DNA of 64,000 bases from the NCBI GenBank assembly GCA_030649935.1, contig JAUSFN010000017.1, forward strand, positions 1 to 64,000. Direction: 5' to 3'. A model generated the notes under the pieces. That model was not told where the DNA came from, made no database searches, and worked only from the letters and a program-made list of their open reading frames with translations. Positions 13,145 through 18,928 of the stretch are shown in pieces. The position numbers and the translations under genes were made by a program. Numbering within the stretch: the stretch's first letter is position 1; each line of letters starts with the position of its first letter. This DNA comes from Candidatus Planktophila sp. (GTDB lineage Bacteria; Actinomycetota; Actinomycetes; Nanopelagicales; Nanopelagicaceae).

Positions 13145-14178
13145 GCTCTGAACTCGGAGAAGTGCGAACTGAAGATGCCTTTGATGTCGATGCCGTTCAT
13201 GGATGGTTGCGCAAAAGCGCTGATGTGCCGCCCCAGATTCCACAAGTTCAACAATTTGGTGCAGGAGCTTCCAATTTAACGTATCTGCTTACATATAAGG
13301 ATCAAGAACTCATTCTGAGGCGTCCTCCAGTAGGGACAAAGGCCGTATCTGCGCATGACATGAAACGTGAGTTCACAATTCAAAAGGTTTTGCTTCCGGA
13401 TTTTCCATTAGTTCCAAAAGTTGTCGCCCTTTGTCAAGATCTTTCAGTTATCGGATCCGACTTTTATGTAATGAAAAAAATTGAAGGGGTAATCTTGAGA
13501 CGAAATTTGCCGAAAGACTTATCTCTCACCCTTGAAGATATAACACTTATCGGAGATTTAGTCATAGATGGCTTAGTTTCACTTCACCATGTTGATTCAA
13601 CCCCGCTTGCACAATTGAGTAGAGGTCCTGGTTATGTTGGACGCCAAGTAAAGGGTTGGTCTAGAAGATATAGGGCTGCTCGTACTCCTGATGTCGCAGA
13701 TGCCGAAGTTCTCATGGGGTGGCTGGATGAACATCAACCCGACGACGTTGCATCATGTGTTATTCATGGCGATTGGAGATTAGATAATTTAGTTCTGAAT
13801 TTGGAAAATAGACCACGACTAGTTGGTGCCCTCGATTGGGAGTTGGCAACCGTTGGTGATCCTTTAATGGATTTAGGTTCGTCGATGGCTTACTGGGTCG
13901 ATCGCAATGATGAGGCGGATTTCGCTAAGTTGCGTCGACAACCGACTCATCTGCCCGGTATGCCAACGCGAGATGAGTTCATAGCCAGATATCTTGAGAA
14001 AACAGAGTGGGGATGTGAAGACTTCACTTTTTACGAAATCTTTGGAATTTTCAGATTAACCGTGATTTTGCAACAGATCTGGGCTCGATATTTTGCAGGA
14101 CAAACATCTAATCCCGCTTTCGCGGGCTTTGGTGATGCAGTGAACATTATGATAAATCGAGCGATGAGGATGATTTGA
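13141..14178 (+). CDS. APH-fold kinase, ACAD10/11 kinase-domain-like
   Basis: Phosphotransferase-family (aminoglycoside kinase fold) protein, 345 aa. It has the nucleotide loop FGAGASNLTYLL (about residues 40-51), the Lys-equivalent region LILRRPP, and the catalytic Brenner motif HGDWRLDN near 214-221 followed by ALDWELATVGDPLMDLG, which carries the metal-binding Asp. The phrase PKVVALCQDLSVIGSDFYVM is characteristic of the ACAD10/11 kinase group rather than antibiotic kinases. It overlaps the dehydrogenase stop by 4 nt and is followed by an overlapping alcohol dehydrogenase gene. The likely role is phosphorylation of a hydroxyacyl-CoA, by analogy with LvaA. Antibiotic resistance is unlikely. 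Confidence 0.9.
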   Translation: MSSELGEVRTEDAFDVDAVHGWLRKSADVPPQIPQVQQFGAGASNLTYLLTYKDQELILRRPPVGTKAVSAHDMKREFTIQKVLLPDFPLVPKVVALCQDLSVIGSDFYVMKKIEGVILRRNLPKDLSLTLEDITLIGDLVIDGLVSLHHVDSTPLAQLSRGPGYVGRQVKGWSRRYRAARTPDVADAEVLMGWLDEHQPDDVASCVIHGDWRLDNLVLNLENRPRLVGALDWELATVGDPLMDLGSSMAYWVDRNDEADFAKLRRQPTHLPGMPTRDEFIARYLEKTEWGCEDFTFYEIFGIFRLTVILQQIWARYFAGQTSNPAFAGFGDAVNIMINRAMRMI

Positions 14179-15182
14179 TGCGCGCCGGACGAATAAAAAT
14201 AAGTACCAGAGAGTTCCAAGTTATCGATTTTCCAATCCCAGTACCAGGTTCACAACAGGTTCGAATTAAAGTTAAAGCTGCCGGTGTATGTCTCTCCGAT
14301 GTTCACTTGCTTGATTCGACTCTTTCGCCAGGGTATTTAGAGGGCGACGAGGTAACCATGGGACATGAAGTTGCCGGCGTAATTGAATCTATAGGCGCAG
14401 ATGTTTCAGATTGGAAGATTGGGAATCGAGTAATTGTTTGTGCAGGCATTAGAGATGCAAAGGGTCGCGTTCGAACTCAAGGATTTGATTTTGATGGCGG
14501 TTTTGCAGAATTTATGGTGGCGGATGTGAGTACTTTAGTTGCAATACATGATGAGTTAAGTTTTGAACAGGCCTGTATAATTCCCGATGCAGTATCAACA
14601 CCATGGGCTGCAATCACTCAGACAGCTAAAGTTGAGCAAGGGCAATCAGCTGCAGTGTTCGGACTTGGCGGTTTAGGAATTCATGCCGTTCAACTCTTGA
14701 AAATAATTGGTGCATCTCCAATCATCGCCGTTGATCCCCTACCTCTTGCACGCGAGCGAGCTTTGTTGGTTGGCGCTGATCTTGGATTAGATCCAAACGA
14801 TCCTGAGTTTTCAAAAAAAATTCGTGCAGCAACTATTGGTCGCGGAATTAACTGTGTATTTGATTTTGCTGGTGTCGCAGCTGTACGAATTCAAGCGCTG
14901 CCGCTGTTAGCCGAAGGGGGGCTTTTAGTCATAATTGGAATCGCCAATGAGGCGGTTGTGATTCCGAATGACATGGCATTTGTATATAAGCGAAATCAAA
15001 TTTTAGGACACTACGGCTCTGAGCCACATCACACCGCAGAGTTAGTGGCGCTTTTGAAGGAGGGTAAACTCGATCTCTCGGCCTCAATCTCGGCGATATT
15101 TTCACTCGAAGATGCAGGCTTAGCATTGCAACAGTTAGAAAATAAAACTGAAAATCCGATACGACTTATCCTTAAACCATAG
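14178..15182 (+). CDS. Zinc-type alcohol dehydrogenase family protein
   Basis: Medium-chain dehydrogenase/reductase of about 334 aa. The catalytic zinc ligands are visible: Cys in AAGVCLSD near residue 36, and the GHE motif near residue 61 (MGHEVAGVIESIG). The NAD(P) Rossmann motif is GLGGLGIHAVQLLK near residue 170. The four-cysteine structural zinc lobe of classical ADHs is missing (the region around CAGIRDAKGRV has one Cys only), so it is a member without structural zinc. The ATG at 14178 overlaps the kinase stop as TGATG, which indicates coupling. It could oxidise or supply a hydroxy compound for the dehydrogenase-kinase pair; the substrate is unknown. Confidence 0.92.
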   Translation: MRAGRIKISTREFQVIDFPIPVPGSQQVRIKVKAAGVCLSDVHLLDSTLSPGYLEGDEVTMGHEVAGVIESIGADVSDWKIGNRVIVCAGIRDAKGRVRTQGFDFDGGFAEFMVADVSTLVAIHDELSFEQACIIPDAVSTPWAAITQTAKVEQGQSAAVFGLGGLGIHAVQLLKIIGASPIIAVDPLPLARERALLVGADLGLDPNDPEFSKKIRAATIGRGINCVFDFAGVAAVRIQALPLLAEGGLLVIIGIANEAVVIPNDMAFVYKRNQILGHYGSEPHHTAELVALLKEGKLDLSASISAIFSLEDAGLALQQLENKTENPIRLILKP

Positions 15183-15304
15183 TTTTGATCACTCAAAAAG
15201 GTCGTTGCACACGGTTCAAAGATAACTAGGCGAAAATACAAAAGCCTCAGACTCCACTCGAGGGCTGACACTCAATTCTCTATATCAGGACGATATCGCA
15301 TAAC

Positions 15305-15310
15305 TATAAT
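15305..15310 (+). promoter_or_regulatory. Consensus -10 box TATAAT upstream of the repeat-protein gene
   Basis: A perfect TATAAT lies 84 nt before the ATG at 15395, in the 212-nt gap after the alcohol dehydrogenase. No good -35 is present at 16-18 nt. Transcription from here would give a leader of about 78 nt. Nothing else was recognised in the gap. Confidence 0.4.
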
Positions 15311-15394
15311 CTAGACTGCAAAATCTGTGCGGGAGTAAAGTCACAAGCAGGTCAGATGCGCAGCCGCCCATCTCCTGCCTCTAGGGGGCTCACG

Positions 15395-16645
15395 ATGAAA
15401 TATTGCAAAATTTCCCCACACCAAACAAAACACACTTTTTCTGTGGTTTCAATTATTGTTTTAATTGTTTCTCTCACCTATCCCGCTTTGATAGCGAATG
15501 CAGATTCTTCTGGGTGGGTAAAACATGAAGGTACTGGCTCATTTGAATCAGTTGCATCTTCGAGTGATGGCTCAAAGCTTGTGGCCGCTGCTGGTGGCGG
15601 AAAAATTATTACATCCACAAATTTTGGCGCCACATGGAGCGTACGTGAATCGGCACGAAATTGGAGTGCAGTTGCCTCTTCTAGTGATGGCACGAAACTC
15701 ATCGCCGCTGTTTCAGAGGGATTGATTTACACATCTATTGACTCCGGTGCCACATGGACGCCGCGCAATTCTCTACACCGATGGATTTCAGTTGCATCTT
15801 CGAGTGATGGCTCAAAGCTCGCCGCCGCTCACGAGGGTGGCTATATCTATACTTCTTCAGACTCGGGTATTTCGTGGACTGCGCGAGATTCAATCCGCAA
15901 TTGGACAAGGATTGCATCCTCTAGTGACGGAACGAAGTTAGTTGCAACGGCACGTGATGATCAGATATTTACATCTTCTGATTCTGGTGCAACATGGATA
16001 GCACGTGATTCAAGGCGCTTATGGCGCTCAGTTGCATCCTCAAGTGACGGGACAAAATTGGCTGCGGTTGTATACGGAAATCCTGGAAATATCTTCACCT
16101 CAGCTGATTCCGGTGCTACATGGACATTACGGGCAAGTGAATTGAGTAAATACTGGCAAGGCATTGCTATGTCATCGGATGCCACCAAACTTGTGGCAAG
16201 CAGCCACATGGGAACGGTATATACATCGCATGATTCTGGCGTGACATGGGCTACTGATAACAACATCCAAAATGCAGATGGTGTAGCAATGTCGGCAGAC
16301 GGCAGCAAAATAATTGTTGGGGCACCGGCCTTTATTTATACATATGGTACTGCAGCCATCGTGAGCGCATCACCTTCACCGTCGGCGAACATCACTAAAG
16401 CCGGGGAAACTTCAAATAGAGATTCTGGAACTACAAAGTCTAAAGTAGTCACCAAAAAAGTAAGTTCCTCTAAATATATTTTGACCGTCATATCAAGATC
16501 CCCAGGAAAGACATTTGAAATAACGGCTACCAAAAAGGGTAAGACCACTTACCTCTTTAGCGGCGTTACCGATTCAAATGGGGGAGCCAGCGTGAGCGCC
16601 AAAGTAAACCTAAACGGCTACTCAATTAGGATAAAAATCAAGTAG
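15395..16645 (+). CDS. Secreted BNR/YCF48-like repeat protein
   Basis: Exported repeat protein of about 416 aa. The ATG at 15395 follows AGGGGG at good spacing; an upstream in-frame ATG (15356) has no such signal. A signal peptide runs from a basic head through VSIIVLIVSL to ALIANA. The body holds six full repeats and one partial repeat of about 40-44 aa, each with the pattern W..VASSSDG.KL.A, I.TS.DSGATW, R.S. The DSGATW core is the Asp-box/BNR signature of sialidase-like and photosystem-stability-factor-like beta-propellers. A Ser/Thr/Lys linker and a small beta-rich domain (about the last 70 residues) follow. No catalytic residues were identified. It is probably a surface or secreted binding protein. 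The repeats are alike at DNA level, pointing to recent duplication. Confidence 0.85.
   Translation: MKYCKISPHQTKHTFSVVSIIVLIVSLTYPALIANADSSGWVKHEGTGSFESVASSSDGSKLVAAAGGGKIITSTNFGATWSVRESARNWSAVASSSDGTKLIAAVSEGLIYTSIDSGATWTPRNSLHRWISVASSSDGSKLAAAHEGGYIYTSSDSGISWTARDSIRNWTRIASSSDGTKLVATARDDQIFTSSDSGATWIARDSRRLWRSVASSSDGTKLAAVVYGNPGNIFTSADSGATWTLRASELSKYWQGIAMSSDATKLVASSHMGTVYTSHDSGVTWATDNNIQNADGVAMSADGSKIIVGAPAFIYTYGTAAIVSASPSPSANITKAGETSNRDSGTTKSKVVTKKVSSSKYILTVISRSPGKTFEITATKKGKTTYLFSGVTDSNGGASVSAKVNLNGYSIRIKIK
15535..16350 (+). repeat. Tandem coding repeats of about 120-132 bp
   Basis: Near-identical blocks recur, for example CAGTTGCATCTTCGAGTGAT around 15548 and again around 15790, and DSGATW-encoding blocks about every 120 bp. 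Copies 2-5 are most alike and the last two are more diverged. They encode the Asp-box repeats of the secreted protein and are not a CRISPR array. Confidence 0.8.
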
Positions 16646-16673
16646 ATGCCTTAGCTGCCGGAGATTCAAATAA

Positions 16674-17160
16674 ATCTACGCGGTCCCCAGTAGTGAAATA
16701 CCCAAGAAGGAGGAAGACCCCAAGCCGGCCACTTCAGCAACTGAAGTATGGTTGGCTCTCTTTCTGGGGTTCAACTCCCGATAACTGCTTTTGCTGTGAT
16801 TTTTGCATTTTTAGCCGAACCGATCACTGGAAATTCAATTCAACTTTGGTTGGGCACCCTTTTCCTTTTGCTTCCAAAAGCTCTCTCAATTACAGTCGCT
16901 AGGAAGTTGCCTAAAAACCTACTCATTCATAGGTTATTGCCAAAGGGTGCTCTAAAGATTAATGAACTGGAAACAGGAAGGCTCCAGGCGTTTCACTTAT
17001 CGATTTGGTGGTGTGGTCATACTCTTTTTTATCGTCGAAACAGCATTAGGAAATAGCCTTGTAGCAGTATTACCCAATATTCTCAGCACGGTTCAGTTAC
17101 TATCAGTTAGGAAATCACCATCAATCAGAGCAGATCTTGGAGGTCACCATGGCGCAAGCT
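16674..17160 (+). pseudogene. Frameshifted remnant of a small membrane protein
   Basis: The 503 bp between the repeat protein and the next intact gene hold no complete gene. Three pieces in alternating frames read as one plausible membrane protein. The first (frame of 16674-16781) ends KPATSATEVWLALFLG. The second (from about 16766) continues VQLPITAFAVIFAFLAEP and a second hydrophobic stretch (LWLGTLFLLLPKALSIT). The third (from about 16995) reads FTYRFGGVVILFFIVETALG and ends near 17160. No start codon with a ribosome site precedes the first piece. A short intact protein starting at ATG 16748 (102 aa) is the alternative. The family was not recognised. Confidence 0.4.
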
Positions 17161-17523
17161 GAGAATGCAATGACTTGGCGAGATCGCATGCGCTCCATCT
17201 GGAGCGCACTTGTCGGAGCCATGGGGTTGGTCATGGGTCTGCTTCCACACATTCTCCATCACGTCGGGTTCCTGGCTGGAACTGCGCTCGTCGCTGGATC
17301 GGGAGGAACGGCCCTCTTTGGTGTGCTGGGCTTTCTCTTTTCGATTCCGATGTTGGTGCGCCTGCATCGACGATTTAAAACTTGGCGCGCCCCAGCTATC
17401 GGACTCCTCATTTTTACACTGCTGTTTTCGCTCTCAGCCTTCGTCATTGGCCCAAAGGTAAGTGGTACGGGCGATGCCAAACCAACAACGGAGCATAACC
17501 CCGAGCATGTGGAACATTCATAA
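17149..17523 (+). CDS. Small membrane protein of probable foreign origin
   Basis: A 124-aa integral membrane protein. The ATG at 17149 is preceded by TTGGAGGTCACC, a strong ribosome site. After a short hydrophilic head (WRDRMRSIW) come two or three hydrophobic segments (ALVGAMGLVMGLLPHILHHVG; FLAGTALVAG and onward; IGLLIFTLLFSLSAFVIG), a basic loop (RLHRRFKTWR), and a His/Glu-rich tail (EHNPEHVEHS). The HILHH and terminal His residues could bind metal. I recall similar proteins beside metal-resistance genes in actinobacterial mobile elements, but that is memory, not a search. Its base composition is clearly more GC-rich than its neighbours, consistent with recent transfer. It lies just left of a partial tRNA copy. 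Function unknown. Confidence 0.75.
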   Translation: MAQAENAMTWRDRMRSIWSALVGAMGLVMGLLPHILHHVGFLAGTALVAGSGGTALFGVLGFLFSIPMLVRLHRRFKTWRAPAIGLLIFTLLFSLSAFVIGPKVSGTGDAKPTTEHNPEHVEHS

Positions 17524-17616
17524 TCGGATTGGTTGTTGCAACCAAGAAAACTTGTTTAAATTTCGAACAAGAAAATCCAACACAGATAGCGCTTTCAGGA
17601 TACTGAATATCAATGG

Positions 17617-17680
17617 TACTGGTGGTTCGGCACACGGATTTGAACCTTCGAAGGTATGGGGATTTACAGTCTCCTCCCAT
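17617..17680 (-). repeat. Partial, decayed tRNA-Tyr copy (possible att site)
   Basis: This stretch repeats the 3' part of the intact tRNA-Tyr at 18844-18928 in the same orientation. Shared blocks are TACTGGTGG (CCA end and flank), a 19-nt identical T-arm/variable block at 17636-17654, and GGGGATTTACAGT (anticodon region), with 9 of 10 bases alike in the following CCCCTCCCAT. The acceptor and D-arm do not match and could not fold. The layout, with an intact tRNA at one end and a 3'-fragment copy upstream of its 3' end, is what integration at a tRNA 3' end leaves behind. Confidence 0.7.
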
Positions 17681-17775
17681 AAAACGCTCATTTTGAGGGG
17701 ATATCAACGTAAGTTCCCTTTGCGCAAGGAATCATATGCATTTACCTAGGAGATACACAATTTGAGGTCTCAGTC

Positions 17776-17811
17776 TTTGCTTTGTAAAGCAAATCAGCTT
17801 TGCATATGCAA
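17776..17811 (+). promoter_or_regulatory. Two adjacent inverted repeats in the leader of the secreted-protein gene
   Basis: TTTGCTTT (17776-17783) and AAAGCAAA (17786-17793) are exact inverted repeats with a 2-nt gap. Six bases later comes the perfect 12-bp palindrome TTGCATATGCAA (17800-17811), which abuts the GGAGG ribosome site of the gene at 17823. They could be operators or RNA hairpins that affect ribosome access. The rest of the gap 17524-17822 holds only the partial tRNA copy. Confidence 0.5.
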
Positions 17812-17822
17812 GGAGGATTTAA

Positions 17823-18596
17823 ATGAAAAAGATCATTATCGCCACACTATTGAGTGCTGGTCTGATTATGGGCTCCACGAGCGTAGCTTTTGCTGCAGAG
17901 ACAACATCTGCATCGACTGCGCCTGTCACATTAGCAACATACAAAGTTCAGTTGACTGCCTATAACACCGCATTGGTGGCCTACGACAGCGCTACTGTCA
18001 CAATTAAAGCTCAGGTTGTCGCTTTTGGTATAGCAGTTCAGAGCTACAAAACTGCATATGAAACCGCCTTAGTAAATTACAAAGCAGTACTTAAGGCAAA
18101 TGGACCTGCCACAACTCCTGCACAGTATGCAGTCTTGTTGGCAGCCTATAACACAGCATTAACTGCTTACAATAATGCAACGGTTACATTTAAAGCTCAA
18201 TTAGCCGTGTTCACCGCAGCAAAGCAGAATTTCAAACTCGCATACGACGCTGTTGTTCTAAGTTATAAAACAACTGTTAATATGCGTGAAAATCTGCGCA
18301 AGGCCATTAACAAAGCATTTGAAGTTGCAATTCATAACGCCAATGCAACGCTTGCAACTGCAATTGCAGCTGCCACCACTGCAGAACAAAAACTAGCTGC
18401 CACAACTGCACGTCAGAACGCTGTTTCTGTTGCAACTGCAGCACGCAAAGCAGCTATTGACGCCGTAGGCGACAAGCCAGTTAAGCCAGCCAAAAAAGTA
18501 AAGTTTGATGCCGATCATGATGATTCCGATAATGACGACATTAAAATTGACAAACCTGCTAAACCGGTTAAACCTGCTAAACCAATTAAGCGCTAA
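17823..18596 (+). CDS. Secreted Ala-rich helical repeat protein with Lys-Pro tail
   Basis: Exported protein of 257 aa. AGGAGG lies 7 nt before the ATG. A signal peptide spans residues 1-25 (LLSAGLIMGS ... AFAAE). The mature part is rich in Ala, Tyr and Val and looks helical or coiled-coil, with an internal duplication: AYNTALVAYDSATVTIKAQ near residue 46 recurs as AYNTALTAYNNATVTFKAQ near 117. A charged tail follows, first acidic (DADHDDSDNDDIKID, possibly Ca-binding), then repeats of KPAKP. Such a tail could bind the cell wall or polyanions. No enzyme motif was found. It lies alone between a partial tRNA copy and a strong terminator, inside the putative tRNA-Tyr island. Family not recognised. 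Confidence 0.8.
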   Translation: MKKIIIATLLSAGLIMGSTSVAFAAETTSASTAPVTLATYKVQLTAYNTALVAYDSATVTIKAQVVAFGIAVQSYKTAYETALVNYKAVLKANGPATTPAQYAVLLAAYNTALTAYNNATVTFKAQLAVFTAAKQNFKLAYDAVVLSYKTTVNMRENLRKAINKAFEVAIHNANATLATAIAAATTAEQKLAATTARQNAVSVATAARKAAIDAVGDKPVKPAKKVKFDADHDDSDNDDIKIDKPAKPVKPAKPIKR

Positions 18597-18618
18597 GCTT
18601 CTTAGTACTTAAACAAAG

Positions 18619-18651
18619 AGCCTCAGGCACATAAAGTGTCTGGGGCTTTTT
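18619..18651 (+). terminator. Rho-independent terminator
   Basis: AGCCTCAGGCAC pairs with GTGTCTGGGGCT (12 bp, two G-T pairs) around an ATAAA loop, followed by TTTTT. It lies 23 nt after the stop of the secreted repeat protein and should end its transcript. Confidence 0.9.
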
Positions 18652-18711
18652 GTCATGCTAGGGAAAGTCGATGAAAACTGGAGTGAAGTGGTTCAGTTGA
18701 AATCAAGTGAG

Positions 18712-18795
18712 TGTCCGAACAGTGGATTGAACCCCGAAGCTCTTACGGGTATTGGCATCTTAAGTTAGCGCGTCTGTCAATTCCACCAACCGGAG
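18712..18795 (-). pseudogene. Decayed tRNA-Leu-like sequence
   Basis: The minus strand carries the class-II tRNA-Leu D-arm TGGTGGAATTGACAGACGCG, a long variable arm (ATACCCGTAAGAGCTTC) and a T-loop TTCAATC, so it derives from a tRNA-Leu. It looks broken: the acceptor pairs only 5 of 7, the anticodon stem only 2 of 5 (CTAAC/GCCAA), and the T-stem has a mismatch. CCA is not encoded. The anticodon loop TTAAGAT would read AAG. The surrounding gap 18597-19033 also contains the terminator and tRNA-Tyr. Confidence 0.6.
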
Positions 18796-18843
18796 TGGGT
18801 GAAGAAATCGACGGAATTCACGCTCAATTTCATGAGGTCTTAC

Positions 18844-18928
18844 TGGTGGCGGGTGAAGGATTTGAACCTTCGAAGGCAGAGCCGGGGGATTTACAGTCCC
18901 CTCCCATTGGCCGCTCGGGCAACCCGCC
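18844..18928 (-). tRNA. tRNA-Tyr (GTA)
   Basis: A complete class-II tRNA on the minus strand. Acceptor GGCGGGT/ACCCGCC pairs 7 of 7, discriminator A and an encoded CCA are present, the anticodon arm GGGGA-CTGTAAA-TCCCC contains anticodon GTA, and the T-arm is GAAGG-TTCAAAT-CCTTC. The long variable arm is typical of bacterial tRNA-Tyr. A partial copy lies 1.2 kb beyond its 3' end. Confidence 0.96.

Follow-up and report, generated by a model that had tools for sequence, protein, structure and literature searches.

A probable tRNA-Tyr integration hot spot in Candidatus Planktophila, occupied in one genome by DNA copied from the surroundings of tRNA-Leu(GAG)

How did a truncated second copy of tRNA-Tyr, and the DNA lying between it and the intact gene, arise in a genome of Candidatus Planktophila, which is among the abundant, streamlined freshwater actinobacteria? 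The window analysed here is a stretch of 64,000 nt that forms part of contig C25, in a genome of 1.82 Mb (G000). A preliminary description had interpreted the locus as the footprint of an integrase-mediated insertion that has since lost its integrase. The features of the locus are given in Table 1.

Table 1. Annotated features of the interval between adh and tRNA-Tyr in the window.
Feature	Position	Strand	Basis or remark
adh, zinc-binding alcohol dehydrogenase; left border of the variable interval	14175-15182	+	
Secreted BNR-repeat protein	15356-16645	+	not found at the locus in compared relatives
Broken remnant of a 592-aa membrane-protein gene (whole in G052)	16748-17055	+	
128-aa membrane protein	17137-17523	+	closest homologue in G141, 87%
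tRNA-Tyr 3' copy, truncated, shortened variable arm	17617-17680	minus	own-genome search, alignment
tRNA-Leu(GAG)-locus-derived segment	17673-18804		alignments to G132, G141 and the own-genome contig C38
Secreted helical repeat protein, 257 aa	17823-18596	+	ORF intact; paralogue of the C38 gene beside tRNA-Leu(GAG)
Intrinsic terminator of the secreted-protein gene	18614-18652	+	folding -27 kcal/mol, z -8.0
tRNA-Leu(GAG) copy, decayed	18710-18804	minus	82% identity over 96 nt to the functional C38 gene
Spacer 3' of tRNA-Tyr	18805-18843		comparison with relatives
tRNA-Tyr(GTA), intact	18844-18928	minus	ARAGORN and own-genome search

The search of the own genome recovered a sole intact tRNA-Tyr(GTA) and a single further match to it (E 1.6e-9), which is the truncated copy, on the same strand and on the 3' side of the intact gene, 1.16 kb from its 3' end. 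The local alignment of the two scores 39.5, whereas no control segment taken from other parts of the window scored above 18. They share an identical block of 19 nt (GGATTTGAACCTTCGAAGG), as previously described, and a second one (GGGGATTTACAGTC) that measures 14 nt and not the 13 first reported. The shortened variable arm of the fragment reads CCTTCGAAGGTATGGGGATTTACA (17645-17668), and the last ~8 nt of the copy (17673-17680, CCTCCCAT) may just as well be the beginning of the tRNA-Leu-locus DNA. A 24-nt core of this fragment is identical in G000, G050, G155 and G166, as could be expected if it were a separate functional RNA. Against this, its folding is no better than that of shuffled sequences (z +0.64), there is no Rfam match and the distribution is patchy, and we regard such a function as extremely improbable.

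The DNA between the two tRNA-Tyr copies contains what had been proposed for it, that is, a secreted repeat-protein gene with its own terminator and a decayed tRNA-Leu, the last undetected by ARAGORN. The signal peptide of the 257-aa protein was judged by eye, three long helices and a disordered tail are predicted, and family searches with this protein gave no match. A paralogue with 84% identity is found on contig C38 of the same genome, adjoining the functional tRNA-Leu(GAG); the genes for close relatives of the protein in G141 and G132 are also neighbours of tRNA-Leu(GAG). The similarity at the DNA level begins upstream of the gene, takes in the terminator and the tRNA-Leu and stops within a few bases of the latter, leaving a segment with CCTCCCA at its left junction and GTGAAG at its right end, just beyond the tRNA-Leu 5' end. 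Judging from these alignments, the present occupant of the window site is a copy of ~1.13 kb of the tRNA-Leu(GAG) neighbourhood, comprising the protein gene and the tRNA-Leu.

The distance from the gene to tRNA-Leu in G132 is ~115 bp, as in the window. On C38 and in G141 a 170-aa gene sits between them, and since this gene is missing from G132 and the window, the window copy would either have split off before that insertion or have come from a third lineage. At the nucleotide level, the C38 and G141 copies are 94% identical, and either of them is 85-86% identical to the window copy. The dN/dS of the secreted-protein gene (~0.17) indicates that it is under purifying selection, with the tRNA-Leu now dead.

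The whole interval from adh to tRNA-Tyr is variable, with five different contents in five species (G000, G052, G141, G153 and G038). In G052 it holds a hydrolase, a Lys-rich protein and the 592-aa membrane protein, which ends 31 bp from tRNA-Tyr and of which the window retains mere scraps. G141 carries a sugar-transport and enolase island that includes the only close homologue found for the 128-aa protein of the window, 8 kb from tRNA-Tyr there, and G153 carries a tripartite tricarboxylate transporter. The order in G038 is adh, 8 bp, a 60-nt tRNA-Tyr fragment, 212 bp and a 380-aa tyrosine recombinase (PF00589, phrog_1). Neither of the nearest relatives, G052 and G141, has the window island at this position. 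The BNR-repeat protein of the window has a sub-threshold similarity to a glycosylhydrolase family.

We searched for tRNA-Tyr in 135 genomes of the genus. Extra copies, mostly truncated, were found in at least 13 relatives; they keep the 3' end and typically break in the anticodon arm, with 5' limits mostly at query positions 55-71 (anticodon loop and arm). In the window, G171, G155, G050, G139, G166, G037, G115 and L221, the extra copy is on the 3' side of an intact tRNA-Tyr of the same contig and in the same orientation. tRNA-Leu(GAG) served as a control: the same genomes have a single copy of it, the exceptions being the window genome, the only one with a second long match, and G127, G057 and G154, where the additional matches are short and partial. 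About 19 of the 80 named loci are on contigs that end inside tRNA-Tyr, which is weak evidence because a tRNA-Tyr nearly identical throughout the genus could itself break metagenome assemblies.

Integrase-bearing versions of the site do occur: besides the recombinase in the same interval of G038, integrase genes or remnants adjoin tRNA-Tyr copies in G026 and G139. The same integrase family adjoins tRNA-Leu(TAA) and tRNA-Arg elsewhere, including a tRNA-Arg on contig C35 of the genome studied here. In G139 (L149 7799-10040), two full tRNA-Tyr copies are 2.1 kb apart and enclose a sulfotransferase-like gene as well as an N-terminal integrase remnant. In G172 (L200 840-8818), two tRNA-Leu(TAA) copies flank 7.8 kb and one of them has the same integrase family beside it. 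A reverse transcriptase gene (PF00078) was observed near a 59-nt tRNA-Tyr fragment in G040 (L110 274-1776).

An empty site was also found. The clearest case is a sister pair in which tRNA-Tyr is empty in L266 and occupied in L276/G171 by an island of 2.9 kb (L148 5430-8485), with an N6/N4 DNA methyltransferase, 66-nt tRNA-Tyr repeats at its flanks and no integrase. Here it is the fragment that retains the psiE spacer; next to the intact tRNA the spacer is new, and its T-stem shows a paired change. Taken together, these comparisons give good support to the 3' side of tRNA-Tyr as an integration hot spot across the genus.

We suggest that elements or cassettes enter tRNA-Tyr at a point from the anticodon arm to the 3' end, restoring an intact tRNA-Tyr and leaving a truncated 3' copy on the far side. 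Serial insertion by tyrosine recombinases, followed by recombinase loss, would be the most likely course, some relatives having retained the recombinase at the site while most, the window included, have not. A tandem duplication of tRNA-Tyr that decayed in place, with no link to mobile elements, could resemble this outcome, and in G115 a pseudo-tRNA-Tyr of nearly full length, with the short variable arm, is located 0.6 kb from the intact gene. However, most copies lack the 5' half, their breakpoints cluster at the anticodon arm, and they adjoin new cargo and, in some genomes, a recombinase, which makes in-place decay very unlikely.

In the window itself, no integrase remnant was found in 15183-18843, and the left junction has just CCTCCCA in common with tRNA-Tyr. 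An att-like core at the donor junction was considered and rejected, being not significant and matched in quality at several further points of the donor locus. We also discarded a homology of the fragment with DNA upstream of the G132 gene, whose score of 4.0 equals the random mean. The secreted protein had no match in IMG/VR or in genome_contigs, and IMG/VR also gave none for the 3' end of tRNA-Tyr, for the fragment form or for the integrase of G038.

The fragment may be older than its present cargo. From 18811 onwards, the spacer beside the intact tRNA-Tyr is common to G141 and has a weak likeness to the spacer accompanying psiE in several relatives. A simple insertion would have put this conserved spacer with the fragment, and its position argues against such an event. 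Moreover, the form CCTTCGAAGGTATGGGGATTTACA is found, at up to 3 mismatches, in six genomes only (a looser form is in G037), and its carriers are scattered on the yajQ-eamA tree and absent among the nearest relatives of the window. In G050, G155 and G166 the TATGGGG form is ~22 bp from tRNA-Tyr with no island, so the fragment need not stem from the insertion of the present cargo. Units similar to tRNA-Tyr, one or two in tandem, were also observed directly beside tRNA-Tyr without cargo in L287 6504-6620 (G166), L286 and L158; the tandem units of G166 and G155 have in common a hairpin-like GGGGATTT..AAATaCCCC.

These observations give room to the main rival explanation, in which the fragment is an old relic that the tRNA-Leu(GAG) segment later joined by a recombinase-independent duplication, through microhomology or template switching at CCTCCCA. 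The 7-bp microhomology, the missing integrase trace and the TATGGGG form next to tRNA-Tyr in other species (the sister L282 is without it) are all consistent with this. On the other hand, the segment landed at a site of insertion common to the genus, and the anticodon arm is where the fragment stops, as the recombinase-linked copies do. We consider the duplication possible, though rather unlikely. The reading that we prefer, and judge probable, is that of a genus-wide hot spot now occupied in the window by the tRNA-Leu(GAG) neighbourhood. For this particular segment, placement by a recombinase is inferred, as is the order in which the events took place. The integrase-mediated footprint first proposed is upheld in part, as regards the hot spot, the recombinases of relatives and the empty and occupied sister sites; as regards the window it is less certain, where no integrase trace was found, the cargo is relocated from a tRNA-Leu locus and the fragment form is common to other species. 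It is also conceivable, although doubtful, that the short-variable-arm fragment serves as an attachment site which is maintained and moves with cassettes from one species to another, and which would let recombinases acting in trans load cassettes beside an undamaged tRNA-Tyr.

Empty, occupied, recombinase-bearing and recombinase-free states at one mapped site show how genomes this small acquire and exchange genes, and make the action of recombinases in trans a testable question. The cargo shows that a tRNA neighbourhood can relocate as a whole, its protein gene surviving while its tRNA decays.

Among known systems, the additive flexible genomic islands of Ca. Methylopumilus, in which the final 20 bp of tRNA-Lys are repeated (PMC10872708), are similar in their direct repeats of one tRNA-gene end, their variable size and content, and cargo mostly without known function; the window site likewise keeps its intact tRNA. 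Host and tRNA are different, the window repeats cover the stretch between the anticodon arm and the 3' end, and part of the cargo was copied from another tRNA neighbourhood. In Ca. Actinomarinales, cassettes with tRNA-fragment direct repeats form mainly a cell-envelope island (PMC7771536), whereas here they are located between adh and tRNA-Tyr and some relatives still have the recombinase. Integrative elements of tRNA genes with phage-type tyrosine recombinases are comparable to what is seen in relatives, where a recombinase is found by tRNA-Tyr copies (G038, G026, G139), tRNA-Leu and tRNA-Arg, but the window has no recombinase gene in 15183-18843. Tycheposons, which combine a tRNA, a tyrosine recombinase and cargo and have a size of 4-200 kb (PMC10872708), also carry cargo at a tRNA in streamlined plankton bacteria; the window island, with ~1.2 kb and no recombinase, differs from them. 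We conclude that it belongs to a known kind, the additive islands flanked by tRNA fragments, and that the origin of its cargo is unusual.
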